Source: a virus
Virus record (IMG/VR): IMGVR_UViG_3300044949_002573
Location: 1-48,167 of that record
Reading direction: 5' to 3' (one strand)
Length of the DNA: 48,167 nucleotides
Both the position numbers and the translations under genes were made by a program. The notes beneath the pieces were generated by a model. It made no database searches. It saw only the letters and a program-made list of their open reading frames with translations, and was not told where the DNA came from. The first letter of the stretch is position 1; every line of letters starts with the position of its first letter. Of this stretch, positions 7,294 through 48,091 are shown piece after piece.

Positions 7294-7401
7294 TTTCCAA
7301 ACCAACTTCTCTCGGTTGCTAGTCGATAATAAACGAGAAAACAGCTACAGAATGCAAGTATTTGCTTAAATCAAATCTTTTACAGAAATTGTTTAGTGAA
7401 A

Positions 7402-15176: not shown

Positions 15177-16004
15177 ATGTCAAACAAAATTCACGAATCA
15201 TTAAAGCAACTTGCGGTTGATGTAGACAAACTAGTTCCACTTGAGGGAAACCCGAGAAAAGGTAACGTCCAGTCAATCGTGGCTTCATACAGAGAATTTG
15301 GACAGATAAAGCCAATTGTTATTCGCCCAAACGATGATGGAACATCAACCGTTATTGCAGGTAATCACCAGTTAGAAGCAGCAAAACTTCTTGGGTGGGA
15401 CAAGATAGCAGCAGTTAGCTATGACGTTGACAACAAGAAGGCAATTGCATTTGCGATTGCCGACAACAGAACCATGGAGCTCGGTTACACGGAATCAGAA
15501 CTACTGAGTGAGTTCATCCTTGAAATTCACGAAGAATACCCAGAGCTTGTTGACAGTCTTGGATGGGATGAATTCGAGATTGCAGAATTCGAACAGACAT
15601 CAATTAGAGATGAATATCAAGTTGTTGGAAGTGGTTCTTACACTCCCCCGGTGATGGTGGAGGATTCAGAAGCGGAAGAAGAGTATGAAAAATTCCAGGA
15701 GACAAAAATAAAAGATACCTCAATGGATATGAATGCTGTCTCAATTACCAAGGATAAAGAGGGAAATCAGCAGATAAATATCAGACCAGGGATTGACCAG
15801 AACGACGCTGTAGTCAGGGGCTCGACAACCGTATCTCCTCGCTCTGCGCCACAAGCCGTTGTTCAGTACACGATTGTTTTTGACAACACCCAGCAACAGG
15901 CAGAATGGTACACGTTCATAAAGTGGCTGCGTTCGGATGCCGGGCTAGAAGGTGACACGGTTGCAGAGAAGTTGATTTCTTTTATCTCAGAGCACACACC
16001 ATGA
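15177..16004 (+). CDS. ParB-like nuclease-domain protein (IbrB/YbdM-like)
   Basis: Residues 12-100 carry the ParB/sulfiredoxin fold: LVPLEGNPRKGN, a helix with YREFGQIKPIVIRP, and IAGNHQLEAAKLLGW, which form the nucleotide-binding pocket of the ParB N-domain; IADNRTMELG follows as in phage ParB-like proteins. The 275-residue protein lacks an obvious HTH DNA-binding domain and ends in a separate C-terminal domain (about 215-275, starting VVQYTIVFDN) preceded by an acidic linker. Its stop overlaps the start of the PAPS-reductase-like gene by 4 bp. ParB-like plus PAPS-reductase-like pairing is known from IbrB/IbrA and YbdM/YbdN; what the pair does in phages is unsettled. Confidence 0.88.
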   Translation: MSNKIHESLKQLAVDVDKLVPLEGNPRKGNVQSIVASYREFGQIKPIVIRPNDDGTSTVIAGNHQLEAAKLLGWDKIAAVSYDVDNKKAIAFAIADNRTMELGYTESELLSEFILEIHEEYPELVDSLGWDEFEIAEFEQTSIRDEYQVVGSGSYTPPVMVEDSEAEEEYEKFQETKIKDTSMDMNAVSITKDKEGNQQINIRPGIDQNDAVVRGSTTVSPRSAPQAVVQYTIVFDNTQQQAEWYTFIKWLRSDAGLEGDTVAEKLISFISEHTP

Positions 16005-17128
16005 CGAGACAGCGCCTATTTCTCGATATGTCTTGCGTGGAGGCTGCACGCCAAAGAATCAGGCATGTTTACGACCAGTTTGACACTGTCTGCGTGCAGT
16101 TCTCTGGGGGAAAAGACTCAACTGCAGTTCTATATCTTGCAAAAGAAGTGCACGAAGAAAGAAATCTTGGGCCAGTAAAAGTCATTTTTCGAGATGAGGA
16201 AATGGTCAGCCCAAGTGTCGTTGAGTATGTTGAAAAAGTTCGCAATTATGACTGGGTTGATATGGAGTGGTACTGCCTCCCATACCCAGCGGAAATTTGG
16301 GTTCTTGGCTATCGTTTAACAACGGTTCTTTGGAGTCAGCAGCGTGGAGAACAGAATAGGTGGCTAAGGGACATGCCAGAGTTTGCAATTAATGCAAATG
16401 ATTTTGGTCTTTCTCACGATAGTTCGCTGCCGGAGCAAACTGACTACTACACAATGCAGGGCAAGAAGGGGAATGTTGCTTTCCTAACAGGTGTTCGAGC
16501 GAGTGAATCAATGGTTAGATATCGCTCTGTAGTTCAAAAATTACATGAAAATTACATAAATACCCCGTACAAACTAAAAGCTGGGATACCGCTCAAATTC
16601 GCAAAAGTCATTTATGACTGGAACACCAACGACGTATTCAAGTTCATAATAGAAGAACACAATGCCGAATATTGTGAGTACTACGACTTGGCTGTAGCAA
16701 CAGGGAGCAACACGAGAGTTGGTATACCGCTCCACGCAACAGCAATAAGAAGAATTGGTGACGTAATAGCAACTGAGCCAGAATTCTATGACAGGCTATG
16801 GGAGTGCTTTCCATTCATAGATGCGCAAAGAAGATGGTGGCCAGAATTTGATAGCGAAAGCCTTATAGCTAGATACTCTGGTCGAGGGTTTGATGGTGCC
16901 TCTGAATTCATCGATGAATATCTTGTTGGGGACAGAAGAAAAATGGAAGCACGCGTATATGTTTCAAAGTTTAGAAAAAAACATCTTCAAGACCCATATG
17001 GATACCCGGTAAGTTGGTTGATAAGAAACTTGATGTTAAATGAAATAGACGTCAACTCACCAACTCCAGTTGGACCGAAAACAAAAGCAAATGCAGTAAG
17101 AATTCTTGAAAGTGAAACAGAATTGTGA
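16001..17128 (+). CDS. PAPS-reductase-like PP-loop ATPase (IbrA/YbdN-like)
   Basis: Adenine nucleotide alpha-hydrolase of the phosphoadenosine phosphosulfate reductase superfamily. The PP-loop SGGKDST is at residues 35-41 and VFLTGVRASES-like sequence (GVRASESMVRYR) follows near 165, as in the IbrA/DUF3440 branch. The 375-residue length suits that branch and exceeds classic CysH; the C-terminal cysteine motif of true PAPS reductases is absent, so assimilatory sulfate reduction is unlikely. It sits between two ParB-like genes with 4 bp overlaps on both sides. Known relatives include DndC, which installs phosphorothioates, but here DndD/DndE partners are missing. A nucleic-acid modification role is plausible inference. 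Confidence 0.85.
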   Translation: MTRQRLFLDMSCVEAARQRIRHVYDQFDTVCVQFSGGKDSTAVLYLAKEVHEERNLGPVKVIFRDEEMVSPSVVEYVEKVRNYDWVDMEWYCLPYPAEIWVLGYRLTTVLWSQQRGEQNRWLRDMPEFAINANDFGLSHDSSLPEQTDYYTMQGKKGNVAFLTGVRASESMVRYRSVVQKLHENYINTPYKLKAGIPLKFAKVIYDWNTNDVFKFIIEEHNAEYCEYYDLAVATGSNTRVGIPLHATAIRRIGDVIATEPEFYDRLWECFPFIDAQRRWWPEFDSESLIARYSGRGFDGASEFIDEYLVGDRRKMEARVYVSKFRKKHLQDPYGYPVSWLIRNLMLNEIDVNSPTPVGPKTKANAVRILESETEL

Positions 17129-17685
17129 AAGATATAAAAATTGATTGGGTAACAAAAGAAAAACTAATTGTTCCAGAGTGGAAATCCACTTATACGCTTA
17201 GACCAGAACTGCTTTTAATATCTGCATCCCTTATGCAGCATGGTTTCATCCAACCTATTCATGCACGAAGGGAAACTGGAGAGATAATAGACGGCTCAGA
17301 AAGATATAAACTTTTAATAAATATTGAAGAAATATCTGAAATCCATGGAGAATTGATACCAGTCGTATTTCATGACTGCGACAAGATTGAAGCAATGATG
17401 ATGCACATGCAACTAAACCGTGGTAAGTCGGTAATCGTTGCAGCAAAGATGTCGAAGATAATTAGGGAGATGAAAAGGTCAGGGCGTTATACAAATCAAG
17501 ATTTTGATGACCTCTTGTGCATGAAGTCTGATGAATTATCATTAATGCTTGACAGCAGCCTAATTAAAGTTAGAAAAATAAAAGAACACAATTATGCTCG
17601 TGCATGGGTTCCGATTGAGGCCCCATCCGGGAAAAGCGACTCTTCAAAACCATTCTTCGAGTCCCCACCAAACCCTGATAGATAA
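17125..17685 (+). CDS. Second ParB-like protein, divergent and short
   Basis: A 186-residue protein with the ParB N-domain order: LLLISASLMQHGFIQPIHARR, then GEIIDGSERYKLL (the nucleotide-binding helix region, with SER in place of the more usual GHR/NHR) and MMMHMQLNRGK. A helical segment (100-150) with KMSKIIREM and LSLMLDSS could be an HTH-like middle domain. It starts at GTG 17125 overlapping the preceding stop, so three genes (ParB, PP-loop enzyme, ParB) form a tight translationally coupled set. It is not a simple duplicate of the first ParB gene, from which it differs strongly in sequence. Confidence 0.78.
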   Translation: MKDIKIDWVTKEKLIVPEWKSTYTLRPELLLISASLMQHGFIQPIHARRETGEIIDGSERYKLLINIEEISEIHGELIPVVFHDCDKIEAMMMHMQLNRGKSVIVAAKMSKIIREMKRSGRYTNQDFDDLLCMKSDELSLMLDSSLIKVRKIKEHNYARAWVPIEAPSGKSDSSKPFFESPPNPDR

Positions 17686-34254: not shown

Positions 34255-35528
34255 TGCCAACAACAGTAAATCTTCTTCCGTGGTACGACTCTCTATCCAC
34301 AACAGGCGACGATGGGGTACCAGTATCCCTAGCCAGCACTGAGTACCCGCTTGGATGGGATACAGACAACGCAACCATCGGTATATCTCCAACAGACTTA
34401 AATGTGACTAACAAGTTTGTGGCCCTGGCTAATCCATCAAGTGCACAGAAAGTTACATACAGACTTCGCAATGTAAAGATAGCCCAAGACATGAATGGAA
34501 GCGGGCTTTCCTTTAATTGCAAACTAAAAACACTTGAAGAAGTCACCGTATCAACAAAATTATGGATAGATTCGGCGTCGGCAGTGTACTTTGTTGACCC
34601 AGAAACAAATATAGCTCAATCGGCGTCTTCTACTGTTTCATATCCGGTGGAGAGTAATACAAAAAAACTCTTTAGCGGACTTTACAATGCCGTTTACTCA
34701 AATACGGCATATGTCCCGAACGATTTAGTTAATCACTATGCAAACATAGACATTGAAGTAACAGGGCATAATGCCACTCCAATAAAAATGACAAATCCGA
34801 ATCTAATTAGAGAGTTGGGTTTTTATGAAAATCCATTCGTTGGACAATTCAGACACTTAATTCCAGATTTTTATTGGTCTATAGATTCTGAAGAAAGCTT
34901 TCCTTCATACCCATTTTATAGATTGATAGATGTTCTTACATCTTTTGCTGGTGATGCTAGGCGAGAATTCACAAGGATGTACGGATATGAGCAGGGTGAG
35001 CTTTATTCACCAGAACAAAAACTCAATTACTTCATAAATAGCTCGCTTGTTTCTCCATCATTTGTTCGTGAAGAGTACATGCCGTGGTTGGCACAATTTA
35101 CCGGCTCTGACCTAAAACAAAACTTCCAACTTCCAGACGGTTCTTTTTACCTCGATAACATAGCTAGCGCTGGAGCCTATACCGAATGGCAATTGCGTAA
35201 CTCATATTACGGAAGAGCCGCTGGAAGTAGGCAGTCAATGATTGACTCTGCAAAAAGAGTTTTAATAAAAACAGACGACGATGAACAGTCAACGCTTGGT
35301 GTTTCTTTGACTCCAAAATTTGGAGGAAATCCTTGGGCCATACGAATACAAACTCTTGCAAATGAAACGCTTGATGCCATCTCTGGCGAGTCAAGCAATT
35401 TGGTTCTTTCAGCAGTAGAGCCATCAAGGCCGCTTGGATTCGAAATAACACACTTAACAGTAGAAGAATTTTTATTGACACTTGACGACATCACGCTTGG
35501 TCTTCTGGGCGAATATCCACTGGGATAG
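34254..35528 (+). CDS. Tail protein I-like baseplate/fibre connector
   Basis: A 424-residue protein following J, the position of P2 gpI. The C-terminal half carries the I-type pattern: IPDFYWSIDSEESFPSYPFYRLIDVLTS (approximately 203-230), EEYMPWLAQFTG (about 276-287), and WQLRNSYYGRAAGSRQSMIDSAKRVL, where the R..I......h..GT motif of gpI has become AAGSRQSM. The N-terminal 190 residues are an added beta-rich domain (YRLRNVKIAQDMNGSGLSF). It would anchor tail fibres to the wedge. The repeat fibre gene follows after a 40 bp gap. Confidence 0.68.
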   Translation: MPTTVNLLPWYDSLSTTGDDGVPVSLASTEYPLGWDTDNATIGISPTDLNVTNKFVALANPSSAQKVTYRLRNVKIAQDMNGSGLSFNCKLKTLEEVTVSTKLWIDSASAVYFVDPETNIAQSASSTVSYPVESNTKKLFSGLYNAVYSNTAYVPNDLVNHYANIDIEVTGHNATPIKMTNPNLIRELGFYENPFVGQFRHLIPDFYWSIDSEESFPSYPFYRLIDVLTSFAGDARREFTRMYGYEQGELYSPEQKLNYFINSSLVSPSFVREEYMPWLAQFTGSDLKQNFQLPDGSFYLDNIASAGAYTEWQLRNSYYGRAAGSRQSMIDSAKRVLIKTDDDEQSTLGVSLTPKFGGNPWAIRIQTLANETLDAISGESSNLVLSAVEPSRPLGFEITHLTVEEFLLTLDDITLGLLGEYPLG

Positions 35529-35568
35529 CAATGATAAACTTTACAATTACAAATACAGGAGATTGACA

Positions 35569-36609
35569 ATGGCTGGTGGATTAGGCACAAGATTATTCGT
35601 TCAGGGCGACGTTATTTCAGCTGCCGACGTGAACGGATACCTGATGAATCAGTCAATCATGCGTTTCGCGACAACCGCTGAAAGAGATACTGCTTTTGGA
35701 AACGGAATTGCAGTTGGCGTCACCGTAGGTGGAACTGCTGGGGACGGAAAACCATTGCTACAAGAGGGAATGTTCGCATACATTGACTTCAATAACGACG
35801 TCACATTTTATGACGGCTCGCAGTGGGTCTCGGCCCCAACATTCGTACTCGCAGATGGTGAAGTAACAACAGCAAAAATTGCAGACGATGCCGTTACTAG
35901 TGCAAAGATTGCTGACGGTGCAATTACTTCTGCACATATAGCAGACGGAACTGTAATCGCATCCGACATAGCAGATGGGTCCGTGACTTCGGCAAAGATT
36001 CTTGACGGAACTATCGTCAACGCAGATATAAACGCTTCGGCAGCAATTGCTCACAGCAAACTAGAAAACGCAACTGCGGGTCAGGTTCTTCTGGGTACTA
36101 CTACAACTGGAGTAGTTACCGCAACAACTATTTCCGGGGATATAACAATTAATGGAGCTGGAGTTGCTTCAATTGTGGCAAACTCGGTAGCACTCGGAAC
36201 TGATACGACAGGTAATTACATGTCGGACATAACCGCTGGAACTGGCTTGTCAGTTTCACATACCGCGGGTGAAGGTTCTTCCGCCACAGTGTCACTTGCT
36301 GGATTGGGTTTTACTACATCTTCTGCTGCATACACGCTTGCACTTACAGACAATAACAACATGGTAGAGATAACGGCAACATCGAATGTGGATGTAACCA
36401 TTCCTCCAGAAAGTTCGGTGTCTTGGCCAAGTGGAACCCAGATTGTAATTTTCCGAAGAGGAACAGGAAAGGTGAGAGTATATCAGGGTGCTGGAGTAAC
36501 CATTCTTTCAACCCCAGGAAATTATTTAAGAGCGACTAATTCTGGAGCAACGCTCGTGCGACGTGATACTAACGTTTGGATACTATTTGGTGACCTCAGC
36601 GCAACATGA
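35569..36609 (+). CDS. Tail fibre protein with decapeptide repeats
   Basis: I place the start at ATG 35569 (346 residues), preceded by AGGAGATTGACA; the open frame extends upstream into the previous gene. Residues 95-164 are six to seven tandem ten-residue units of the form SAKIADGAVT (bases about 35850-36060), a collagen-free fibre repeat common in phage tail fibres that makes a thin trimeric shaft. The N-terminal part (1-90) probably attaches to the baseplate and contains YDGSQWV. The C-terminus (about 215-346) is Ser/Thr/Gly-rich and beta-structured, including TIPPESSVSWPSGTQIVIFRRG, as in fibre head domains. Confidence 0.8.
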   Translation: MAGGLGTRLFVQGDVISAADVNGYLMNQSIMRFATTAERDTAFGNGIAVGVTVGGTAGDGKPLLQEGMFAYIDFNNDVTFYDGSQWVSAPTFVLADGEVTTAKIADDAVTSAKIADGAITSAHIADGTVIASDIADGSVTSAKILDGTIVNADINASAAIAHSKLENATAGQVLLGTTTTGVVTATTISGDITINGAGVASIVANSVALGTDTTGNYMSDITAGTGLSVSHTAGEGSSATVSLAGLGFTTSSAAYTLALTDNNNMVEITATSNVDVTIPPESSVSWPSGTQIVIFRRGTGKVRVYQGAGVTILSTPGNYLRATNSGATLVRRDTNVWILFGDLSAT

Positions 36610-38465
36610 TTGTAACTATTGGCTCCTCTGGCGGTAAGCCTGATACTCCATCTGTTGTAACTGGCTCCACGAAACTCGGAACTGTAGCTGCGACGGGTGG
36701 CACAAAGACAACAATAACTTCTGGTGGAACGCAATGGAGTTTGCATCAATTTGACAGTACTGGGGTAATAAATTTTTCCTCTGGCGGCCCAATTGAGTAC
36801 ATAATTGTTGGAGGCGGTGGCGGTGGTGCAGAGGGTGGAGTTGGAGCAGGAGCAGGAGCGGTTGTAACCGGAACAACTACTGTCTCTCCAGGAAACTATG
36901 CAATAACCGTAGGTGGAGGAGGTGGCGGTCAAGAAGGTTGGTGGTACTACGGGAACACTGTAAGTAATGGGCAGCCTAGCAGCGCTTTCAGCCAGACAGC
37001 AGATGGTGGTCAGTCCGGTGGTAATTCGGGGAATGGAAGAACACCTGGGGCTAGCTTTCAGTCTGGTTTTAGCAACACTGTTTCAGGCGGCGGTGGAGGC
37101 AGTGCTGCAAATGGTAACCCTGGTTCATTTCCTAGACAGGGAGGCTCGGGCGGTAGTGGTGATGACATATCTGCATTTTTAGGACAATCTGGTGGCACCA
37201 CATATAAAGGCGGCGGAGGTGGCGGTTCTGGTTTCTGGGCAAATGACTGGGGCAATGAATCAATTCTTGGTGGAGCTGGAGGGCTCGGAGGCGGAGGACT
37301 TTCACCGGGTGTAGGAGCTGTTGGCGGTGGGTATGTAATACCACAAACAGCGCGTGGAGCAACCAACAGCGGTGGCGGTGGCGCTACGGCTGCAGGCAGA
37401 ATGGGCCAACCAACCGACGGCGGAGCGCGTGGAGCAAATGGCGGTTCAGGAATCGTCTATGTTCGTTATGCACTTAGTTCGCAAACAACAGCAGAGGTTG
37501 GTTTTGTGGAACCAACATTTAAGGGCAAGAGTGGCGTTGCTCGATATAGAGTAAAGTCAAATACAAATGTTCAGACATTGGGCGACAATTCGCCGATAGA
37601 AGTTACCGGACTAACTCCTGGTCAAAATTATAATTTTACTGTCACCACAGTTGCTGATTCTGGAATGGAATCAGATGAGTCAGCAGCATCAAATACATTT
37701 CAGCTCGGAATTGCTCCTGGCGCACCGACGATTGGTACAGCAACAGCCGGAAACTCTGCTGGTAATTACAATCGCGCAACAGTTTCGTTTACTCCTGGGA
37801 CAAGTGGAACTGGAACAACTACTTACACTGCGACATCAATTCCTGGCGGATTTACAGCATCAAATACGACCGGGGACCCGATTACTGTAACTAGTCTAGA
37901 AGTTGGAGTGAGCTACACGTTTACGGTCACAGCATCAAACTCGTTTGGTGCAAATACTTCCGGACAATCAAACTCGATAGTAGCGAATGGGATACCACCA
38001 GCACCAGTGCTTAACAGCGTAAGTGCTTCATACAGCAGAGCATCACTGTCCTGGAGTGCAGCGGCTGGGGCAACCAGTTATATAGCATACGCTGTTGCTT
38101 CTGGATACACTACGCGTACAGCCACAACAAGCGGAACATCGGTAACAATAAGCAGCCTAAGCACCAACGTCACATATACATTTTATGTTGTTGCATCGAA
38201 CGCAGCGGGTAGTTCAGGAAACTCTAATTCACTCACAGAATTCACCGATGTGCCATGCCCGGCTGGAACATATGTAAACACGATTCAATACCCTGGGGAA
38301 GGCACTACTTGCACATATGACAGGAGATGTGACGGAGACGGCGGTATAGGTCTTTACTATGTTGGTGGAGGCTGTAACGTCTGCTGCTCGAGCGGTAGGG
38401 TTGTTGGTGCTTACTGCGCTGGCTGCTCCCCATGCCTAAACAATGACGAGGGTGGTTGTCCGTAG
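36606..38465 (+). CDS. Glycine-rich tail fibre with Fn3 domains and Cys-rich C-terminus
   Basis: A 619-residue likely adhesin, coupled to the first fibre by an ATGA overlap. Residues 60-280 are glycine-rich with many GGGGGG runs around YIIVGGGGGG, the pattern of phage tip-fibre beta sandwiches linked by polyglycine helices (as in phage S16 gp38-type adhesins, though not clearly homologous). Three fibronectin type III domains follow (about 290-380, 380-460, 465-545), each with GLTPGQNYNFTVT-like strands. The last 70 residues contain ten cysteines, a separate compact domain. The most likely host-receptor binding protein in the window. Confidence 0.8.
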   Translation: MIVTIGSSGGKPDTPSVVTGSTKLGTVAATGGTKTTITSGGTQWSLHQFDSTGVINFSSGGPIEYIIVGGGGGGAEGGVGAGAGAVVTGTTTVSPGNYAITVGGGGGGQEGWWYYGNTVSNGQPSSAFSQTADGGQSGGNSGNGRTPGASFQSGFSNTVSGGGGGSAANGNPGSFPRQGGSGGSGDDISAFLGQSGGTTYKGGGGGGSGFWANDWGNESILGGAGGLGGGGLSPGVGAVGGGYVIPQTARGATNSGGGGATAAGRMGQPTDGGARGANGGSGIVYVRYALSSQTTAEVGFVEPTFKGKSGVARYRVKSNTNVQTLGDNSPIEVTGLTPGQNYNFTVTTVADSGMESDESAASNTFQLGIAPGAPTIGTATAGNSAGNYNRATVSFTPGTSGTGTTTYTATSIPGGFTASNTTGDPITVTSLEVGVSYTFTVTASNSFGANTSGQSNSIVANGIPPAPVLNSVSASYSRASLSWSAAAGATSYIAYAVASGYTTRTATTSGTSVTISSLSTNVTYTFYVVASNAAGSSGNSNSLTEFTDVPCPAGTYVNTIQYPGEGTTCTYDRRCDGDGGIGLYYVGGGCNVCCSSGRVVGAYCAGCSPCLNNDEGGCP

Positions 38466-39447: not shown

Positions 39448-39747
39448 ATGGAGTCAATAGGAACCTGGTTCATAACCGCAACCTCACCGCTTGGTAGAGA
39501 AACATACAACCTACGCCTAAACAGCGATGGTTCTGGCTCTATTTCACACGATAGAGGAACTGTAGAATTCTCAGACGCCCTAATAACAAGCTCTGATACA
39601 TCACTAAATGTTAAAATTTGTGGCCACACAGACATCCCAATGAGCGTTGATTTCCTCTGCCAGTTTGAATCTATGGGAAAATCCCTAACTGGTTTTGTCG
39701 AGATTGGCGAATATGCAAACATTGAGCTCACCGGGGTGAAAATATGA
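39448..39747 (+). CDS. Small beta-structured accessory protein
   Basis: A 99-residue protein with alternating strands and no helix: GTWFITATSPLGRETYNLRL, DGSGSISHDRGTVEFSDALI, LNVKICGHTDIPMSVDFLCQFE and LTGFVEIGEYANIELTG. The order (thin strand pairs each ending in G) fits a small family in actinobacteria whose members read GxW...TP.G.....L.....dG..L.G; that resemblance is from memory and moderate. It overlaps the start of the glutathione-peroxidase-like gene by 4 bp, so the two are a coupled accessory pair. Confidence 0.68.
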   Translation: MESIGTWFITATSPLGRETYNLRLNSDGSGSISHDRGTVEFSDALITSSDTSLNVKICGHTDIPMSVDFLCQFESMGKSLTGFVEIGEYANIELTGVKI

Positions 39748-40367
39748 CCATTAAATCAGTTTTTGATATGCCAATTAAATCAGTTGATGGCACCATCGAC
39801 GTGATGGATTCTGTGCGCGGTAAAGTCTGTTTATTCACGAACATAGTAACGAAGACCGACTACCAGCCAAGATGTAGTCCTATCTGGTCATATGCCAGAG
39901 CTGCAAGGCAGTTATGGGAATTTCAGAAATTGCATGAAATGTTCTCAGACAAGGGTTTCAGTGTTGTTGGTTTCCCATGCAATCAGTTTGGTGAGATGGA
40001 ACCATCGAACAACGAAGATATAAGTCAATTTATTTCCGAAGCTTATCCATTTGTTACTTTTCCAATTACCGAAAAAGTTGAAGTGAACGGCCCTAACGAG
40101 CATCAAATATGGAGTTTTCTCAAAGGGGATATAGTGCGCGCCTTTGATGACAACAAAGCCGATGGCTCGGACAGGGCTGCAGATGGACAAAACCTCGCAG
40201 GACAAGCCATTATGCGAATCCCGCATAACTATGAAAAATTTATGGTGAGCAGAGATGGCCAGCAGGTTGGAAGATTTAATTGGGCAGACCTACCATTGGC
40301 CGACAAGCCACTCGCCGCTGGTTCATCATGGACAGTGGTGGAAGCAGTGAAATCACTTGTAGGTTAA
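39744..40367 (+). CDS. Glutathione-peroxidase-like protein lacking the peroxidatic residue
   Basis: A 207-residue thioredoxin-fold protein of the glutathione peroxidase family: GKVCLFTNIVTK (26-37), VVGFPCNQFGEMEPSNNEDI (74-93) and NYEKFMVSRDGQQVGRF near the C-terminus are clear family text. In active enzymes the Cys or Sec follows NvASK; here the matching residue is T38, and the catalytic Trp in WNF is replaced by His (HNY). Gln81 in NQFG is kept. A 15-residue insertion after YQPRC adds C44, which could serve instead. So either a non-peroxidase thiol protein or an enzyme with a moved active cysteine. It precedes the oxygenase array by 2 bp. Confidence 0.8.
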   Translation: MTIKSVFDMPIKSVDGTIDVMDSVRGKVCLFTNIVTKTDYQPRCSPIWSYARAARQLWEFQKLHEMFSDKGFSVVGFPCNQFGEMEPSNNEDISQFISEAYPFVTFPITEKVEVNGPNEHQIWSFLKGDIVRAFDDNKADGSDRAADGQNLAGQAIMRIPHNYEKFMVSRDGQQVGRFNWADLPLADKPLAAGSSWTVVEAVKSLVG

Positions 40368-40369
40368 TT

Positions 40370-41368
40370 ATGAAAATGCCATCTACTCCGCATATTGGTG
40401 CGGAAGAACTATCAGAAATCGGCAACATCGTTGCTGATGACCTTGGTAGCGGGATAGTCGTTTTTAGAAACGCATTTAATGTTGAAGACTGGATTCTCAA
40501 GCACATAGACGAGTGTGCGGCAGAGGCCCACAAGAGCCGTTGGTCCTACGTAACCGATGAAGACGGGATTGAGTATGGAATCAACGAGGATGGCTTTAGA
40601 TACCGTCTAGAAGACGTCCCAAACGCCCCTGTAAGACTCCTGGAGCCCGTTACAAAGGCGACAAGCCCAGATGTGGTCGAATACTTCACAGGTCTCGAGG
40701 ACGCCATCTACAAGTGCCTGATTCGCTATACGGACATGTTCCCATTAATCGTTGGGAGCCTCTGGTGGAGGACAAGGGGTCACATACTCAGGTACGACGG
40801 TGGCGGGATACTTGGATGGCATCAAGACAACGATACGAACTACAAAGTCACCCAGGGTGTTAGATACATGCCACGTGGGCAGGTAGCACTCAGACAGACG
40901 GCTGGCGCTTTGGCATATTTCAATGATTGTGTAGATAGCGCCGATGAGCTTGATGGGACCAACTTTGCTGGCGGGCACCTTAAGTTTGCATACCTCGGGA
41001 TTGATTACAAGCCAAGAAAAGGGGACATCATCATGTTCCCAACGAACTACATCTGCGCACATGGAGTGACAAAGATGGAGGGTGGAACCAGGTACGCATA
41101 TCTTTCGTTCTTTGGCCAAGGCGGAACCGACAATGCGGCGAATATAAGAATTAAAGAGAAAGATGCAAGCATCCAATGGTGTGAGCCAGTTTGGTTTGAC
41201 AATATTTACGACGACTACGAGCTTTATTGTAAATCCGAGTACTCAATTTGGTCAAAACCAACACCAGGCCTAGAACTCGGCTCCAATCCTGTTTTCCAAA
41301 ACAGATGTGTGACGCAGTACGGTGAAACACACACCGCCCTGGAGGTGAATCAAGTTGAAACGATATGA
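40370..41368 (+). CDS. 2OG-Fe(II) oxygenase 1
   Basis: Start taken as ATG 40370, 2 bp after the preceding stop. The 332-residue protein is a 2-oxoglutarate/Fe(II) dioxygenase of the prolyl-hydroxylase type: iron ligands H151 and D153 (GWHQDNDTNY), distal H231 (ICAHGV), and R241 in GGTRYAYL for the 2OG carboxylate. The N-terminal signature LGSGIVVFRNAF (25-36) and MFPLIVGSLWWRTRGHILRY (123-142) recur in its neighbours. Substrate unknown. It is the first of two rightward oxygenases, and its 3' end carries the strong ribosome site (GGAGGTGA, 41341-41348) for the next. Confidence 0.88.
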   Translation: MKMPSTPHIGAEELSEIGNIVADDLGSGIVVFRNAFNVEDWILKHIDECAAEAHKSRWSYVTDEDGIEYGINEDGFRYRLEDVPNAPVRLLEPVTKATSPDVVEYFTGLEDAIYKCLIRYTDMFPLIVGSLWWRTRGHILRYDGGGILGWHQDNDTNYKVTQGVRYMPRGQVALRQTAGALAYFNDCVDSADELDGTNFAGGHLKFAYLGIDYKPRKGDIIMFPTNYICAHGVTKMEGGTRYAYLSFFGQGGTDNAANIRIKEKDASIQWCEPVWFDNIYDDYELYCKSEYSIWSKPTPGLELGSNPVFQNRCVTQYGETHTALEVNQVETI

Positions 41369-42344
41369 AGTTGATACACCAGATATTTCAGGTGAAGTAC
41401 TAGAGGAGATACGCAATCTTAAGTTCACCGACCTTGGTGGTGGGGTTGTTGTTTTTCATGATGTAATGGACGTAGACCTGCCATTGATGTCAAAGTGGAT
41501 AGACGATAACGCATTGGCCGCACACCAACAAAGATGGAAATACGACATTGATAAAAACGGTGTTGTGTATGCAAAAAACGAAGACGGAAACAAATTCTCT
41601 ATTGAGCAAGTTGAAACCGTTCCAGTTAGAGTTCTCGAGCCAGTACAGGACGGAACAGAAGAAGAAATAGTCGAAATAATCAGGGGATGGGAAGACTCCA
41701 TCTATAAAACCCTAATTAGGTACATAGACATGTTCCCTCTAGTGGTTGGAACCATATGGTGGAGAAACCGTGGCCATGTTCTTAGATACGACCCAGGTAA
41801 GCATCTTGGTCTACATAATGACAACGACACCAACTATAGAGCTACTGGTGGAGAGAGATACATTCCGTATGGGCAGGTTGGAGCAAGGCAGACTGTTGCC
41901 GTACTTCTGTACATAAACGATTGCGTTGATTCTGTCGACCAGCTTGATGGCACAAATTACAGCGGTGGCGAATTGTATTTTCCATACCTAAACATAAGCC
42001 ATCAGGCCAAAAAGGGCGACATCATAATCTTCCCAACAAACTATGTCGCATCCCACGGAGTTAACGAAGTAACTGGTGGAACAAGGTATGCATACTTGGA
42101 GTTCTTCTCGCAAGGCAGCCCAGACATAAACATCAGACTCGAAGTTGCCGAGCCAGATGAGGTTTCAAGCTGGTGTGTCCCACACTGGATAGACACTGTT
42201 TACGATGATTATCAAAAGTACTCAAATCACATCAAGCAGAATTACTCTCACCTAAAAGAAAATGTCAACAAAATTGACTATCTAGTGAGGAACCTCGAAG
42301 GGGAAAAAGGTTACATAAATCCGCTAAACAGAAAGCTTGATTGA
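41355..42344 (+). CDS. 2OG-Fe(II) oxygenase 2
   Basis: Starts at TTG 41355, supported by GGAGGTGA six bases upstream; it overlaps oxygenase 1 by 14 bp. The 329-residue protein is the closest paralogue of oxygenase 1: LGGGVVVFHDVM (27-38), MFPLVVGTIWWRNRGHVLRY (126-145), H154 and D156 in LHNDNDTNY, H234 in SHGV and R244 in GGTRYAYLEF. All catalytic residues are present. A helical C-terminal tail (about 285-329) is extra and could mediate oligomerisation. Likely arose by tandem duplication. Confidence 0.88.
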   Translation: MKRYEVDTPDISGEVLEEIRNLKFTDLGGGVVVFHDVMDVDLPLMSKWIDDNALAAHQQRWKYDIDKNGVVYAKNEDGNKFSIEQVETVPVRVLEPVQDGTEEEIVEIIRGWEDSIYKTLIRYIDMFPLVVGTIWWRNRGHVLRYDPGKHLGLHNDNDTNYRATGGERYIPYGQVGARQTVAVLLYINDCVDSVDQLDGTNYSGGELYFPYLNISHQAKKGDIIIFPTNYVASHGVNEVTGGTRYAYLEFFSQGSPDINIRLEVAEPDEVSSWCVPHWIDTVYDDYQKYSNHIKQNYSHLKENVNKIDYLVRNLEGEKGYINPLNRKLD

Positions 42345-42889
42345 TAGTGGCGAATATAGGAATTGTTTCAATGGGGAATATGGGGCTCACCATAGCGGCA
42401 AGCATGATTAATTCAGGAAATAAAATTCACTGGACGTCAGAGGGCCGCTCTGAGCAAACAAAACAAAATGGGAGAAACCTTGAAGGCTCAATAGAGCACG
42501 AAAGCATAAGGGAACTTTTTAATTCTTCAGATGTTGTATTTTGCATTGGCAGGCTTGGGGCAGGAATAGACACAATCAATTCGGCCGCAGACAACAAATT
42601 TGATGGGATATATGTAGACGGGAATAATCTCAGCGGTGAATCTTCAGAGAAAGAAATAAGTGAAATAGCAGAATCTGCAGATATAAAATATGTAGAGGCA
42701 TTGTTTAGGGGTTACCCAATTGGGTATGACCAAGGTGGCGGTGAGGACAAGAGAGACTTATATCTGTCTGGTCAATCGGAGTTTGCAAAAGTTGTTGAAT
42801 CTTTATTTTCCGACGGAATTTGGAAGGTTCATATTGTCCAAGAATCAGCAAAAGCATTAAATAGAACAAGATTTAAAAGACTTTTTTAG
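42341..42889 (+). CDS. Isolated NAD(P)-binding Rossmann domain (beta-hydroxyacid dehydrogenase-like)
   Basis: A 182-residue protein that opens with a dinucleotide-binding loop ANIGIVSMGNMGLTIA (GxxxMGxMG-type), followed by KIHWTSEGRS and SDVVFCIGRLGAG, the pattern of the N-terminal domain of 6-phosphogluconate / 3-hydroxyisobutyrate dehydrogenases. The second, helical catalytic domain is absent; only a short C-terminal helix remains. TTG 42341 overlaps the oxygenase stop; GTG 42347 is an alternative start two codons in. The gene converges on oxygenase 3 with a 4 bp overlap of stops. It may make or sense a dinucleotide cofactor rather than act on a hydroxyacid. Confidence 0.7.
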   Translation: MIVANIGIVSMGNMGLTIAASMINSGNKIHWTSEGRSEQTKQNGRNLEGSIEHESIRELFNSSDVVFCIGRLGAGIDTINSAADNKFDGIYVDGNNLSGESSEKEISEIAESADIKYVEALFRGYPIGYDQGGGEDKRDLYLSGQSEFAKVVESLFSDGIWKVHIVQESAKALNRTRFKRLF

Positions 42890-43614
42890 TCAACTTCCCC
42901 AACAAGAACTGTTTTCTGAAGATTGTTTCCTGTCCCAGAATTCCTTTTAAGCTCCTGAGCCCATTCGTATGAGCCTTCTTTTTCTTCTTGCCCGTTGCCA
43001 TGAAAGAACCAGCTCAGGAAAGCCCATCTCTCCCCTCCGCTCACCTCTGAAACCTCGTGGCACCCTATGAAGTTTGATGGGTAGATAATTGCTGAACCTG
43101 CTTCTGGCTTAACGTTTATTCCCCATATCCTAAATATAACATCACCACCAGAATATGAGTCATTCAAAAATATTGACGTTGTAAGTGTGTTGAACGCAGG
43201 GCTCGTCGTCATTGGCTCGAGAGTCCCAGGCCTATAGGGTATGTTGCAGTCTGAATGTGGCCCCATATCGTTTCCATCGCCATATCTAATCAAATAGCCA
43301 TCAGTTTGCCCAGTTATACACTCCAAGGCAACCGGAAAAACTTTGCAATACTCAATTACCGCTGAATATATAGATTCTCTGAGTTTCTTGGTTATGTCGA
43401 ATTCACCTATATTTGTGTATCTGGTTGGAGATTTACTTTTACTCATCTCATCAAACTCATAACCACCATCACTTATTGTTTTCCCATCGACAATTGAATA
43501 CCCCTGTGGGGCGGTGGATTCAAATATGCGATTTATTTCATCAGTATCATCGTGCGAAATTTGGACTAAATTTCGCACCAACACTATTCCGCTGCCAAGG
43601 TGTATCAATTTCAT
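42886..43614 (-). CDS. 2OG-Fe(II) oxygenase 3
   Basis: A 242-residue dioxygenase, the shortest of the five with the shared N-terminal signature (HLGSGIVLVRNL, 5-16). Iron ligands H120 and D122 (PHSDCNIPY), H186 (GCHEVSEVSGGERW) and R196 are present; YPSNFIGCHEVS matches prolyl-4-hydroxylase-type enzymes with C-terminal GERWAFLSWF. It lacks the WW-RGH segment of the others and has instead ITGQTDGYLIRYGDGND. Last gene of the leftward operon, it overlaps oxygenase 4's stop by 4 bp at its start. Confidence 0.87.
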   Translation of the reverse strand: MKLIHLGSGIVLVRNLVQISHDDTDEINRIFESTAPQGYSIVDGKTISDGGYEFDEMSKSKSPTRYTNIGEFDITKKLRESIYSAVIEYCKVFPVALECITGQTDGYLIRYGDGNDMGPHSDCNIPYRPGTLEPMTTSPAFNTLTTSIFLNDSYSGGDVIFRIWGINVKPEAGSAIIYPSNFIGCHEVSEVSGGERWAFLSWFFHGNGQEEKEGSYEWAQELKRNSGTGNNLQKTVLVGEVD

Positions 43615-44522
43615 AAGCTTTCCCCGAGTACCAGCCTGTATGTCCTAGAAGACTTATCCTCACCAACGGAATCCAGGTACTCTAAAAACTTTTCCCTCAG
43701 ATGGGGGATGTATACGTTTGAAGATATTGAAGCTTTTTCTGGGTTGACTTCTGGGTCTTCAACTTCCTCATTTACGTTTGGATTCGGCGTTCCATGGGCG
43801 TACCAACCAAGATAAGTGAATCTATCCCCAGACTTGACAGGAGTTACTTCATGTGCTGCAACATAGTTTGACGGGAACATCAATATGTCACCACGGTTTG
43901 GGATGTACTCAATATCAAGATAAGTAAATTTATGATGTCCGCCAGTGAAATCACCTGGACCAAAACCTTCGAAAGGAAAACCTCGCGAACCAAGACCATC
44001 AATGCAGCTGCCAAAATACACCAAACAAGACAGAGTGTTGCGTGAAGCAAGCTGGTGAGGTGGATGAGGTATTCCGTATACATAGTCAACGCTTGTGTCG
44101 CTGTGTTCACCTATATAACCACCACACTCGGACGAATAGTTGACTAAATGGCCTTTAACTTTCCACCAAATATTCTTGTACGCCAAGGGGAACATGTGCA
44201 TGTATTTGAGTAAATACTTATCTTTTGAATCTTCCAAAAACGTGAACAGCTCAACAACCTCGGCTCTTGTATCCTGATGCACCCTAGAGCCTCTTTTTGG
44301 CATTTTATCAATTCCATTTTTAGAGAAGAAATAGCCACTTCTATTTACGTATTCCTCTTGACCGCTGTCTGGGTTTATTGCTGGAGAATACATTTCTGCA
44401 ACTTCTCTATCAACTATCTCTTTTGAGATATCATTAGCAAACGTCCAATTTATGGATATGGCATTGCGAAATACAACAACACCCCCACCAAGATGTTCGG
44501 CTTTTACGTTATTAAAAATCAC
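43611..44522 (-). CDS. 2OG-Fe(II) oxygenase 4
   Basis: A 303-residue paralogue with the shared signature LGGGVVVFRNAI (11-22), MFPLAYKNIWWKVKGHLVNY (110-129), iron ligands H140 and D142 (EHSDTSVDY), H224 (AAHEV) and R234 (SGDRFTYL). An insertion around 170-195 (Gly/Phe-rich) lies between the strands before the distal His, where substrate loops usually lie. Both ends overlap neighbours by 4 bp, so it is translated as part of a tight chain of oxygenases. Confidence 0.87.
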   Translation of the reverse strand: MIFNNVKAEHLGGGVVVFRNAISINWTFANDISKEIVDREVAEMYSPAINPDSGQEEYVNRSGYFFSKNGIDKMPKRGSRVHQDTRAEVVELFTFLEDSKDKYLLKYMHMFPLAYKNIWWKVKGHLVNYSSECGGYIGEHSDTSVDYVYGIPHPPHQLASRNTLSCLVYFGSCIDGLGSRGFPFEGFGPGDFTGGHHKFTYLDIEYIPNRGDILMFPSNYVAAHEVTPVKSGDRFTYLGWYAHGTPNPNVNEEVEDPEVNPEKASISSNVYIPHLREKFLEYLDSVGEDKSSRTYRLVLGESL

Positions 44523-45379
44523 TTGTGGTCATTCTTTCGCGACTTGAACGGCATGACTTCATTTGGTATTTTTCCTTCATCGCCATATTTTTTCATTAGA
44601 TATTCGTCATAGTCAGATATTACATTCTTCATCCACCACTGACCACCAATTGGCCTGTCCGTGTACAAGTCTGGGTCCATTGGGGATATGCCCCTATCAA
44701 TTTGCTCTGAACCCTGAGAGAACAAAGTGAGATATGTGTATCGGCACCCAGAGGTGACTTCAAGTATTTCATGTGCACCAAGATAGTTTGATGGCATGAA
44801 TACTATATTTCCGCTTTTAGGTTTGACAGTAACCCCAGCGTGAGGCACAACCATTTCTCCACCAGAAAAAGAGTTATCGTCGCATTCTCCTTCATCGCAA
44901 CTATCGTTGATATAAACCAAAACAGTTATAACTGCCCTTGTTGCATTCTCAACAGGAGGGAACTGGCCGTACCTGTAGTTGACGTCGTTGTCGCAATGCA
45001 GCCCAAGCTTTGAACCAGTCGGATATTTTAATGCATGGCCCTCTGTTTTCCACCAAAGACACTGCAGAACCCACGGAAACAATTCTATATATTGCATCAG
45101 GCAACTGTAAATTGTTTTTTCGCAATCCCAAAAAAACTGATGGTTAAGGTTTTGTATTCTTATTGGAGTTTTTGATATTGACTCAAGCTCAAAAATAAAG
45201 CCACTCTTGTTTATAGCGTGGATAATCTCGCCGCTCTCGTTTTTAACATACTCGTACTGCTCGCTGAGAGACTTTTCTGAAAGTTCGTCTATGAGGGTTA
45301 TAATCTCTTTTTGAGGAACATCTATGGCGTTCTCAAAAACGACCACCCCACCTCCAAGATTTATTGCTTCACAATTCAT
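44519..45379 (-). CDS. 2OG-Fe(II) oxygenase 5
   Basis: A 286-residue paralogue: NLGGGVVVFENAI (7-19), LFPWVLQCLWWKTEGHALKY (100-119), H128 and D130 in LHCDNDVNYRYG, H203 in GAHEI and R213 in SGCRYTYL. An acidic Cys-containing loop (NDSCDEGECDDNS, 158-170) precedes the FSGGEMVVP strand. Closest in layout to oxygenases 1 and 2 despite being on the other strand, which suggests an inversion after duplication. It lies 18 bp downstream of oxygenase 6. Confidence 0.87.
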   Translation of the reverse strand: MNCEAINLGGGVVVFENAIDVPQKEIITLIDELSEKSLSEQYEYVKNESGEIIHAINKSGFIFELESISKTPIRIQNLNHQFFWDCEKTIYSCLMQYIELFPWVLQCLWWKTEGHALKYPTGSKLGLHCDNDVNYRYGQFPPVENATRAVITVLVYINDSCDEGECDDNSFSGGEMVVPHAGVTVKPKSGNIVFMPSNYLGAHEILEVTSGCRYTYLTLFSQGSEQIDRGISPMDPDLYTDRPIGGQWWMKNVISDYDEYLMKKYGDEGKIPNEVMPFKSRKNDHK

Positions 45380-45397
45380 GGCAAAAACATACCATAG

Positions 45398-46024
45398 TTA
45401 CCGGATTTTAATAGCAGACGGACCGTTAATTGAATACTCGGACCAATCCGGCACGGCAGTCATATTCTCGTTTTTGGGTTTAAAATTTGCACTTACGACA
45501 ATTCTTTTTTCTTCACCGTAGTGTCTATTCGTCATGTGATGAATATAGGAATTAAATATAACCAACATTCCAGTTTTTGTGGATATTGCGTAAGAATTCT
45601 CTATCAAATTGCAGTGATTAGTTAAAAATATTAAATCCGCACTTCCATCCGGGGCATTGACATAGTAAGAAATTGAAAAGTAATCATTTGGATGAAGGTG
45701 CGTGTTTACCCTATGCGTATGGCCAGCAACGGACTGTCCGTGCTCAAGGGTTAATGTCCATATTGAGTCAAGCTCCATCTCCTTGCCAATAATCGAATTT
45801 ACAGCAGTTTTTAACTCATCAATAAGTTTTGAGCATTCAGGCATTGAAAACGGATAATGTCTATCCTCGTAGAACGTATGAGCTGGACTTGGGTCCTTAA
45901 TATAGGGTAAAGCTCCAGAATATTCGTCTATTTCCCTAGCGATTAAATCGTTATCAATATTTGTGATGTTAGTTGTAAATACATCCAGACTTATTAGATT
46001 TATCTTTTTGAAATCTCTACTCAT
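45398..46024 (-). CDS. 2OG-Fe(II) oxygenase 6 (Oxy_5-like)
   Basis: ATG 46024 is taken as start (208 residues, 8 bp overlap with the upstream gene); TTG 46030 is possible. It belongs to another branch than oxygenases 1-5: THLHPNDYFSISYYVNAPDGSADLIF (108-133, given as the family landmark in shortened form: H109/H111, SISYYVN) and a distal IHHMTNRHYGEEKRIVVSANF end (H162/H163, R174) match the putative 2OG-Fe(II) oxygenases common in cyanophages. The N-terminal 40 residues (INLISLDVFTTNI) pair with this branch. The exact iron ligands are less certain than for the others. Confidence 0.78.
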   Translation of the reverse strand: MSRDFKKINLISLDVFTTNITNIDNDLIAREIDEYSGALPYIKDPSPAHTFYEDRHYPFSMPECSKLIDELKTAVNSIIGKEMELDSIWTLTLEHGQSVAGHTHRVNTHLHPNDYFSISYYVNAPDGSADLIFLTNHCNLIENSYAISTKTGMLVIFNSYIHHMTNRHYGEEKRIVVSANFKPKNENMTAVPDWSEYSINGPSAIKIR

Positions 46025-46688
46025 AAACAAAATTAGCCATGTCTACCGGAGGATTTGATTTAAGCCAAACATTCACAACCATTACATTTCTTATTCCAGA
46101 AACGCATGGGCTGGTTTGATGTAAGACCCTTCCTGCGTCAAATATTATTAATCTATTTTCTTTAAAAGCGATTCTTTCTCGCAGCTCAATTGGGTCTAAT
46201 TTTTTTTCAAGATTTTCCCATTCAAGCGCATTTTTTTCTCCGAAAGTAAGCTTTGATTCAAACAGTTCAAGAAATCCACCTACAACATTTTCTTTAGATG
46301 GTCCATAGTAAACGCAACCTATTTCTGGCCCATTGTAAATTTTTGTGTCTTGATATAGGAATGTATCCTCATCTACGTGCGGACCAAGGAATTGACCTGG
46401 CCCGAAAGTTCTTGTCCAATACTCAAAGCCAAGAACCTCGCCAGATGGTACGGGTAGGTTGCTCTCCCATATGTTTCTAATTACGCGCTTCCTTATTGTG
46501 TCGACCGGGGAAGACCACCAACCCTCCCAGAACATGTATGGCGCATAACAGCTTGCTTGCTCGTTATGGTAAGAATTGAGCTCGCTTGCTATTCTGCTCT
46601 CATCTTGCATCAATCCTGGAAAAAAATCAGGAGAATCTGATATTGAACTAAGAAGCGAGCTTCCGAGAAAATTGTCCAGTACTTTCAT
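46017..46688 (-). CDS. 2OG-Fe(II) oxygenase 7
   Basis: A 223-residue dioxygenase of a third type: it begins MKVLDNFLGSSLLSSI, as many phage 2OG enzymes do, and has H104 and D106 (GPHVDEDTFLY), distal H190 (GRVLHQTSP) and R200 (SGIRNVMVVNVW). A Trp-rich segment (YMFWEGWW, 51-58) lies before the jelly-roll core. It is separated by 36 bp from the methyltransferase-like gene upstream and overlaps oxygenase 6 by 8 bp. Confidence 0.85.
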   Translation of the reverse strand: MKVLDNFLGSSLLSSISDSPDFFPGLMQDESRIASELNSYHNEQASCYAPYMFWEGWWSSPVDTIRKRVIRNIWESNLPVPSGEVLGFEYWTRTFGPGQFLGPHVDEDTFLYQDTKIYNGPEIGCVYYGPSKENVVGGFLELFESKLTFGEKNALEWENLEKKLDPIELRERIAFKENRLIIFDAGRVLHQTSPCVSGIRNVMVVNVWLKSNPPVDMANFVYE

Positions 46689-46724: not shown

Positions 46725-47483
46725 TCAATTCTTAACAAACACCGTGAACCCGTATTGGCCTGAGTCGTGAAAGACAAAGCCATCATATGACTTAAGAATT
46801 TGATGCATTTCATTGTGTGGATGAAACCAGAAGTCGTCACGATAAAGTTTCCCAGAATTATTATTAAAGTTTATAAGCAACACACCATTAGCGGCTAGAG
46901 CCTCAATGCAATCAATCAACAGTTGCCCGTTTGAGTTGCATTCGAACGCTTGCATTGTAATCAAATCAAAATCTACAGCCTCACCTTGTCCTATTTCTGA
47001 CTTGTCTACTACGGAGTAGTCAATGTCAGCATATGGTTTTCCGTCAATCTCCATCGATTGGTCTCGTACAAAATGTTCAAAATTCCAAAGTGCCTGATTA
47101 TTTACAAAACATACTTCGGTACTTGGGAATCTGATTTTCTGAAAAATTGGAGTTGGTGCCTGGTCTGGGTTGAAAGCAAGAATTTTATTTGGTTTTTTTG
47201 TGCACATCATTAATTCGATAGGGGCTTGTGCAACTATCATCATATCTGCCCATGGGGACTCTGGTGTCACTAGTTGGTCAATGTACCAGAGACCCTCGGT
47301 TGCTCCTCTTGCGGCAATTGACAAGTCTAGATTAAGGGTATCTCTCCAATTTTTAATATTCGTAGAGGATTCAAATCTTTCTGTTGCAGCTATCCTGACG
47401 CCATCCTCACCCAAAATAGTCGTCGCCATATATTTTGATATAGATGCTGTAACCATTGCTGTTCTGAGTTGTTTATTGTCCAT
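46725..47483 (-). CDS. Possible SAM-dependent methyltransferase-like protein
   Basis: A 252-residue protein whose second half (about 170-252) has the strand-helix order of a class I methyltransferase C-terminal half: AVDFDLITMQAFE (strand 4), LLIDCIEALAANGVLLINFNN (helix then strand 5) and a final hairpin FVFHDSGQYGFTVFV. Strand 1 may be NKILAFNPD near 99-107, but the glycine-rich SAM loop is not visible, so binding of SAM is uncertain. Position next to oxygenases suggests it acts in the same modification pathway. It overlaps the preceding gene by 11 bp. Confidence 0.45.
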   Translation of the reverse strand: MDNKQLRTAMVTASISKYMATTILGEDGVRIAATERFESSTNIKNWRDTLNLDLSIAARGATEGLWYIDQLVTPESPWADMMIVAQAPIELMMCTKKPNKILAFNPDQAPTPIFQKIRFPSTEVCFVNNQALWNFEHFVRDQSMEIDGKPYADIDYSVVDKSEIGQGEAVDFDLITMQAFECNSNGQLLIDCIEALAANGVLLINFNNNSGKLYRDDFWFHPHNEMHQILKSYDGFVFHDSGQYGFTVFVKN

Positions 47484-47793
47484 TTTTTACTGCCCTTGCA
47501 AGAGTGAAGTTCCAGTTAGCTTTTCTCGCTCTGTCCGTCATTCTGGAATTCATTTTCGAGAGGAATCTAGGTATTGAGTTATTGGTGTAGGTGGGCTCTA
47601 AGGAACCTCTCAAGTCGCTGCTGTATCTCCACATCATCCTGATGTCTGAAACCGCTCCAGGAATATTGAATGATTCTACGTTTTCCGGGTCGTAACCAAG
47701 TATGTATGACAATACGGCCAGTTCTGTTTCGTAGTACGCAATATCTCCATCTGCGTCATACAGATTTTCGCCACCAGAGACTCTACTCCTCAT
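47473..47793 (-). CDS. Small hypothetical protein
   Basis: A 106-residue protein without a family I recognise. It is helical in the middle (DIAYYETELAVLSYILGYDPENV) and ends in a basic helix (FLSKMNSRMTDRARKANWNF). No membrane segment or Cys. It overlaps both neighbours by 11 bp, so it is a real member of the leftward operon. Confidence 0.65.
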   Translation of the reverse strand: MRSRVSGGENLYDADGDIAYYETELAVLSYILGYDPENVESFNIPGAVSDIRMMWRYSSDLRGSLEPTYTNNSIPRFLSKMNSRMTDRARKANWNFTLARAVKNGQ

Positions 47794-48091
47794 TAAACAA
47801 CTCCTCTACATCCTCGTCGCGCATGAAGTCGCCTTGCTCTGTCTCTTCCCACTTCTTCTGTGGGTCGCTTGACTGCAATAAGTCGCAAAAGAATGCAGCG
47901 CCGTCGGGTAGTTCAAAAGAAAACAATTTTGGATTCCATACAGCAACTTGTTGGTCTCTGTTTGGATTACTGAGTGGCTCTTGAATATTTGGAAAGTCTG
48001 GGTCTACGTCTGGACAAATTTCATATCTTCCAGAATTAATTGCCTCTTCGACAATTGAAATCTGTTTAGGTATTTTTGGCGTTATCTTCAT
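47783..48091 (-). CDS. Small acidic hypothetical protein
   Basis: A 102-residue acidic protein (C-terminus MRDEDVEELFNEE). PKIPKQISIVEEAINSGRYEICPD starts it; WNPKLFSFELPDGAAFFCDLL (about 52-72) is a likely beta-hairpin and helix. I know no family. It lies 7 bp after the partial gene at the right edge and overlaps the next gene by 11 bp. Confidence 0.65.
   Translation of the reverse strand: MKITPKIPKQISIVEEAINSGRYEICPDVDPDFPNIQEPLSNPNRDQQVAVWNPKLFSFELPDGAAFFCDLLQSSDPQKKWEETEQGDFMRDEDVEELFNEE

Follow-up and report, generated by a model that had tools for sequence, protein, structure and literature searches.

A compact, conserved array of 2-oxoglutarate/Fe(II) oxygenase genes beside tail-fibre genes in probable actinobacterial phages

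The oxygenase array and its extent

The IMG/VR virus record IMGVR_UViG_3300044949_002573, analysed over its 48,167 nucleotides (the window), carries between positions 40,370 and 46,688 seven genes for 2-oxoglutarate (2OG)-Fe(II) oxygenases, designated D1 to D7 (Table 1). An earlier note on this DNA had proposed such an array, and open reading frames (ORFs) with Pfam or phrog matches lie at that place, accompanied as described there by a Rossmann gene and a methyltransferase (MT)-like gene, located next to fibre genes and exceeding the phage norm in copy number. D1-D5 score 33-43 bits against PF13640, above the cut-off of 27, and D6 scores 39 bits against PF13759, also above a cut-off of 27, while D7 matches phrog_274 and reaches 24 bits (24.3, E 6e-5) with PF13640, just under the cut-off of 27. 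Adjacent genes overlap, mostly by 4 to 14 bases, and form two packed, convergent runs, gpx-D1-D2-Rossmann on the plus strand and u102-u106-MT-D7-D6-D5-D4-D3 on the minus strand. Promoters and terminators in the array showed no excess over shuffled sequences.

Table 1. Genes of the oxygenase array and its immediate surroundings in the window.
Feature	Coordinates	Strand	Description
Fibre-like genes	35482..38465	+	Two genes left of the array: repeat fibre (35482-36609) and Gly-rich/Fn3 fibre (36606-38465)
Small gene	39448..39747	+	99 aa, accompanies the array
gpx	39744..40367	+	Glutathione-peroxidase-fold (GPx-like) protein, PF00255, without peroxidatic Cys
D1	40370..41368	+	2OG-Fe(II) oxygenase, long family, sister lineage of D2
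D2	41355..42344	+	2OG-Fe(II) oxygenase, long family; H154, D156, H234, R244
Rossmann	42341..42889	+	NAD(P)-binding protein (PF03446/PF03807), N-terminal domain only, 182 aa
D3	42886..43614	-	2OG-Fe(II) oxygenase, long family
D4	43611..44522	-	2OG-Fe(II) oxygenase, long family
D5	44519..45379	-	2OG-Fe(II) oxygenase, long family
D6	45398..46030	-	PF13759-type putative 2OG-Fe(II) oxygenase, without HxD
D7	46017..46688	-	2OG-Fe(II) oxygenase, different subfamily (phrog_274), HVD...H
MT	46725..47483	-	Class I methyltransferase-fold protein, no clear GxGxG S-adenosylmethionine (SAM) motif
u106	47473..47793	-	Conserved companion gene, 106 aa, 53/85 loci
u102	47783..48091	-	Conserved companion gene, 102 aa, 22/85 loci as clustered

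The gene order of the array is kept across dozens of related contigs; 80 of 331 candidate related contigs were kept, and locus counts out of 84 are those with duplicates removed. Two loci, L006 and L007, are 95-100% identical to the window through D1-D7 and continue past its right end with a DUF6065 gene, three further oxygenases and a sulfotransferase-like gene; judged from these relatives, the array extends beyond the window. The 172.5-kb relative G001 has 12 PF13640 matches at 34.6-53.8 kb, to which D6, D7 and a PF05118 Asp/Asn hydroxylase are added, bringing the total to 15 oxygenase genes within about 19.4 kb. Interspersed among them are two DUF6065 genes, a DXD glycosyltransferase (PF04488) and a fatty acid desaturase, and the whole is situated between two sets of fibre-like genes. 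By annotation, these large tailed phages carry a packed block of 7 to 15 predicted oxygenase genes beside tail-fibre genes. Identity between the window and G001 is 84-96% for D1 (in two pieces), 89% for gpx, 80% for D4, 78% for D2 and 77% for D7, with the structural genes less conserved (portal 69%, tube 68%, sheath 65%, baseplate J 55%) and D6 only 38% identical. A second island of G001, at L047:7717-12126, contains a TauD-type oxygenase close to a carbamoyltransferase.

Ancient paralogues with intact active-site residues

All-against-all BLASTP returned mutual matches among D1-D5 with E values of 2e-22 to 2e-113 (25-53% identity) and no significant match of D6 or D7 to these five, in agreement with the five local paralogues described earlier. 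The D1-D5 profile splits the ORFs of all loci into a long family scoring at least 128 bits and short oxygenases scoring at most 77 bits, which places D1-D5, on profile scores, in one discrete and essentially viral family and led to the rejection of separate acquisition of its members. At least three long-family genes are present in 78 of the 84 loci and at least four in 74, and D6 and D7 belong to other subfamilies and may have joined the array separately. A profile scan of genome contigs detected only three relatives, all on contigs of metagenome-assembled genomes; a bacterial origin of the family is disfavoured, and these relatives are likely misbinned phage, since one contig has a terminase-like gene and the other two contain little beyond the array.

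The paralogue tree contains groups for D3 (31 rows, support 98), D4 (19 rows, support 100) and D1 with D2 (26 rows, support 100), and a weaker one for D5 (15 rows, support 85); it is an unrooted tree of a quick type, and the branching order among its clades is to be read with caution. The same distant viruses recur in each paralogue clade, indicating that the duplications predate the divergence of these viruses, and D1/D2 is probably the latest split among the five. Recent tandem duplication was rejected, as viruses with a D2 of only about 50% identity still have orthologues of D3, D4, D5 and D1/D2. In 53 loci D3, D4 and D5 are adjacent and run on the other strand from D2, and the block is flipped onto D2's strand in 8 of the 84, so that the duplication and later inversion envisaged in the earlier note are borne out, with the single family being ancient. 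The phylogeny with related phages, which that note had named as a check, shows co-inheritance of the anciently duplicated genes and recovers distinct, conserved lineages.

H154, H234 and R244 (D2 numbering) are retained in 101 of 101 representatives of the D1-D5 family, and D156 in 100 of 101. Iron ligands of the form HxD...H had been claimed for all seven oxygenases; six, as the earlier note also said, have a clear HxD and Arg, whereas D6 reads HLHPN...H...R, the pattern of PF13759 with its different metal site. The ratio of nonsynonymous to synonymous substitution rates (dN/dS) of D1-D5, compared with L008 and L010, lies at 0.01-0.06 where dS was measurable, many other comparisons being saturated, and D7 gives 0.03 against L008; D6 is the fastest evolving of the seven. 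The conserved catalytic residues and the low dN/dS indicate that D1-D5 are enzymes in use and, combined with synteny in dozens of contigs, argue that the array did not arise by chance.

A PDB profile search with the D1-D5 alignment matched PKHD/PiuC (E 2e-11), prolyl 3-hydroxylase 1 (1e-6), prolyl 4-hydroxylase (P4H; 8e-5) and LH3 (0.02). The AlphaFold model of D2 (pLDDT 87, pTM 0.87) has a double-stranded beta-helix core, and its best PDB folds are Bacillus anthracis and Pseudomonas putida P4H, PBCV-1 collagen P4H, PKHD, mimivirus lysyl hydroxylase and PHD2, with TM-scores by target of about 0.4-0.66 (about 0.5-0.66 for P4H and 0.42-0.52 for PKHD). In a viral structure library the closest entries are "oxoglutarate/iron-dependent dioxygenases" of uncultured phages. 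On profile and model matches, peptidyl hydroxylase is the favoured enzyme class for D1-D5.

Companion genes, virus and host

Counted over 85 loci, the most frequent neighbours are the GPx-like gene (67), the MT-fold gene (53), u106 (53), DUF6065 (48) and two fibre genes (47 and 36). Rarer companions are the Asp/Asn hydroxylase of family PF05118 (16), TauD (15 and 11), a gene labelled sulfotransferase-like from a HIPRTSG-type motif only (13) and a PF11397 glycosyltransferase (13), the last of which is found in 11 of 50 related records. DUF6065 proteins of oxygenase arrays are exemplified by L043:9466-10167 and L042:15931-16635. The best Foldseek matches of the MT-fold protein are TrmR and O-methyltransferases (E about 1e-6; model pLDDT 78). 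The Rossmann protein compares with a 288-aa form in the related viruses L031/L032. In L108/L109/L111 a D6-type oxygenase carries, as a C-terminal fusion, a homologue of the small gene preceding gpx (28.6% identity, E 3e-7; L108:15227-16147).

The GPx-like protein reads NIVTKTDY in place of NVASKCGF, with Thr at the peroxidatic position; among 55 array homologues, 21 have the peroxidatic Cys and 34 have Thr, Ala or Ser. Because this Cys is lost, the protein is probably no ordinary peroxidase. Many homologues keep a Cys seven residues further (PKC-S), and the fold may be repurposed.

The window encodes portal, terminase, tail sheath, tail tube, baseplate J, tape measure and fibre-like genes, which identify a contractile-tailed phage. 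A WhiB gene is present in 14 of 50 related records, including 8 of 8 records of 80 kb or more, and in none of the ORFs of the 48-kb window. WhiB occurs only in actinobacteria and their phages (PMC6802176), and on this basis the host is most likely an actinobacterium. The isolate terminases nearest to that of the window belong to Gordonia phages, at about 42% identity, alongside methanogen phages. An aquatic (freshwater) setting is tentatively suggested by contig numbers and by the literature on WhiB phages. The 48-kb record is itself probably a fragment. An ORF of at least 2435 aa (1-7305, minus strand) runs off its edge and possibly encodes a giant fused head protein; its start resembles a prohead protease. 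At 15177-17685, a ParB-like gene, a PAPS-reductase-like gene (phrog_2302) and a second ParB-like gene follow in succession, an arrangement similar to IbrA/IbrB-type cassettes.

Proposed function, alternatives and significance

The array is tentatively read as a dedicated peptidyl-hydroxylation module of probable actinobacterial phages that would feed further tailoring by companion enzymes, a reading to which we assign a probability of roughly 0.42. D1-D5, D6, D7 and the members outside the window would probably be active Fe(II)/2OG oxygenases of the P4H/PKHD structural class, produced together during infection from two overlapping, convergent operons. Each paralogue would have its own hydroxylation site on a protein of the phage or host, and the new hydroxyl could then be capped by companions that vary among viruses, including glycosyltransferases of the PF11397 and other types, the MT-fold protein and the sulfotransferase-like protein. 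The target would most likely be a conserved virion or host-surface protein acting in adsorption or assembly, not the variable fibre tips. This reading is favoured because profile and fold matches point to peptidyl hydroxylases, because PF05118, PF11397 and PF04488 genes keep the array company, and because the array of G001 lies between fibre modules. The enzyme that gives PF11397 its name adds GlcNAc to the hydroxyproline of Skp1, and no other observation hints as strongly at hydroxylation followed by capping as such a gene next to P4H-like ones. The likeness to the pair formed by Skp1 prolyl hydroxylase and the hydroxyproline GlcNAc-transferase is at family level only and does not show that the acceptor is hydroxyproline. 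It is unlikely, though worth stating, that the viruses possess a full hydroxylate-then-decorate system, in which paralogous peptidyl hydroxylases mark separate virion or host residues that exchangeable glycosyl-, sulfo- and methyl-transfer enzymes cap, as a bacterial-virus counterpart of hydroxyproline and hydroxylysine glycosylation.

Several observations weigh against a peptidyl-hydroxylation module. If each enzyme served one fibre, array and fibre should diverge together. Pairwise score ratios among array genes mostly correlate at 0.5-0.87 (Spearman; D1 and D6 less), whereas those between the array and two fibre-side genes correlate at only -0.09 to 0.35, in a comparison with short flanks, no neutral baseline gene and saturating fibre scores. 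Between the window and L007 the array score ratio is 0.99 and that of the fibre genes 0.06-0.08, and the comparison with L010 shows the opposite tendency. Such independent evolution speaks against one enzyme per fibre; fibre-specific enzymes were rejected, and the earlier suggestion of a separate substrate for each enzyme is weakened as far as fibres are concerned. The proteins encoded by G001 and by the window were found to contain no collagen-like repeat, and a collagen-like fibre substrate was likewise rejected; a globular protein substrate, or a conserved virion or host target, is possible. The PF11397 gene is absent from the window, the MT-fold protein shows no evident, conserved GxGxG-like SAM motif (alignment A2), PF05118 also includes lipid hydroxylases, and the fatty acid desaturase sits within the G001 array. 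The small-molecule hydroxylases SnoK and HygX are among the fold matches of the D2 model, and a P4H/PKHD fold does not imply a peptide substrate, because small-molecule hydroxylases share it.

SnoK and HygX, together with the independence of the array from fibre sequence, are also consistent with a biosynthetic or tailoring pathway in which the oxygenases act successively on one small molecule, glycan or lipid, either of the host envelope or virion-bound, aided by the Rossmann, MT-fold, desaturase, TauD and sulfotransferase-like proteins. The paralogue quartet stays together in pathway fashion, and these companions would suit such a route. However, peptidyl hydroxylases or PKHD proteins account for all of the best profile matches, no known pathway can be recognised in complete form, and the companions vary by virus while the quartet is constant, so that a pathway is somewhat unlikely, yet a serious candidate.

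Hydroxylation of a host protein to seize translation or blunt defence, comparable to the P. putida and B. anthracis P4Hs that bind or modify EF-Tu, is improbable. EF-Tu-linked P4Hs (4iw3, 5v7y) are among the nearest folds of the D2 model, and the strong conservation of D1, D2, D4 and D7 despite fibre swapping fits a constant target, but there is no direct link, the proximity to fibre genes suggests a role in the virion or late in infection, and a single host site would need just one enzyme. A drawdown of 2OG that alters host nitrogen or energy signalling, proposed for cyanophages with many 2OG oxygenases (PMC3037559), is very improbable here, since a sink needs no separate, individually conserved paralogue lineages and the regulator on which the proposal was based, NtcA, is cyanobacterial, whereas the hosts here are indicated by WhiB to be actinobacteria. 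Oxidation of DNA or RNA bases by TET/JBP- or AlkB-type enzymes is the least credible: nucleotides had been named as a target, but fold and profiles are those of P4H/PKHD, no base-modification cassette was seen in the array, and the Pfam family Tet_JBP matched D1 only below cut-off (E 0.02, 14.5 bits against 34.9) and D2-D7 not at all.

Phage 2OG-Fe(II) oxygenases have been found in viral metagenomes, with functions described as not specifically investigated (PMC9602691) or cryptic (PMC9301287). The range of one to three per phage given in the earlier note is too low, as T4-like cyanophages carry 1-5 (PMC3037559; PMC9602691) and Synechococcus phage S-SCSM1 carries 24 (PMC9602691). These cyanophages resemble the present viruses in being tailed and in having many PF13640/PF13759 genes without known substrate and with low identity between copies. 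The PF13640 matches of S-SCSM1, however, are spread over 0.3-220 kb, the tightest group being 3 in about 1.7 kb, in contrast to 7-15 genes in one block, and none of these S-SCSM1 matches is a long-family member, their scores with the D1-D5 profile not exceeding 55 bits, against a fixed paralogue quartet in WhiB-carrying phages. PKHD/PiuC and bacterial P4Hs share the core fold and HxD...H...R and give the best profile and fold matches, but the phage enzymes differ from them by an N-terminal part of about 120 residues with an extra, nearly invariant Arg (R92), by identities of 12-17% and by the multi-copy phage array. PBCV-1 vCPH and mimivirus lysyl hydroxylase are likewise virus-encoded with a peptidyl hydroxylase fold, but act on collagen-like proteins. 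Among 50,697 isolate-phage records, D4, D6 and D7 have no relative and D2 has only a partial match at 29%. A literature search on actinophage hydroxylases with tail fibres found none, and 2OG oxygenases go unmentioned in the main text of the WhiB freshwater-phage literature searched, an incomplete check. Many oxygenases per phage are thus already known, and the compact conserved array and the long family represent a new form of this.

The compact, conserved set of four to five paralogues indicates that in one virus group the oxygenases work as a set, because their active-site residues are intact, purifying selection is strong and gene order is fixed. The substrate can now be sought experimentally with a few purified enzymes and a virion proteome, and the array may point to a way in which phages of abundant aquatic actinobacteria modify proteins or surfaces.

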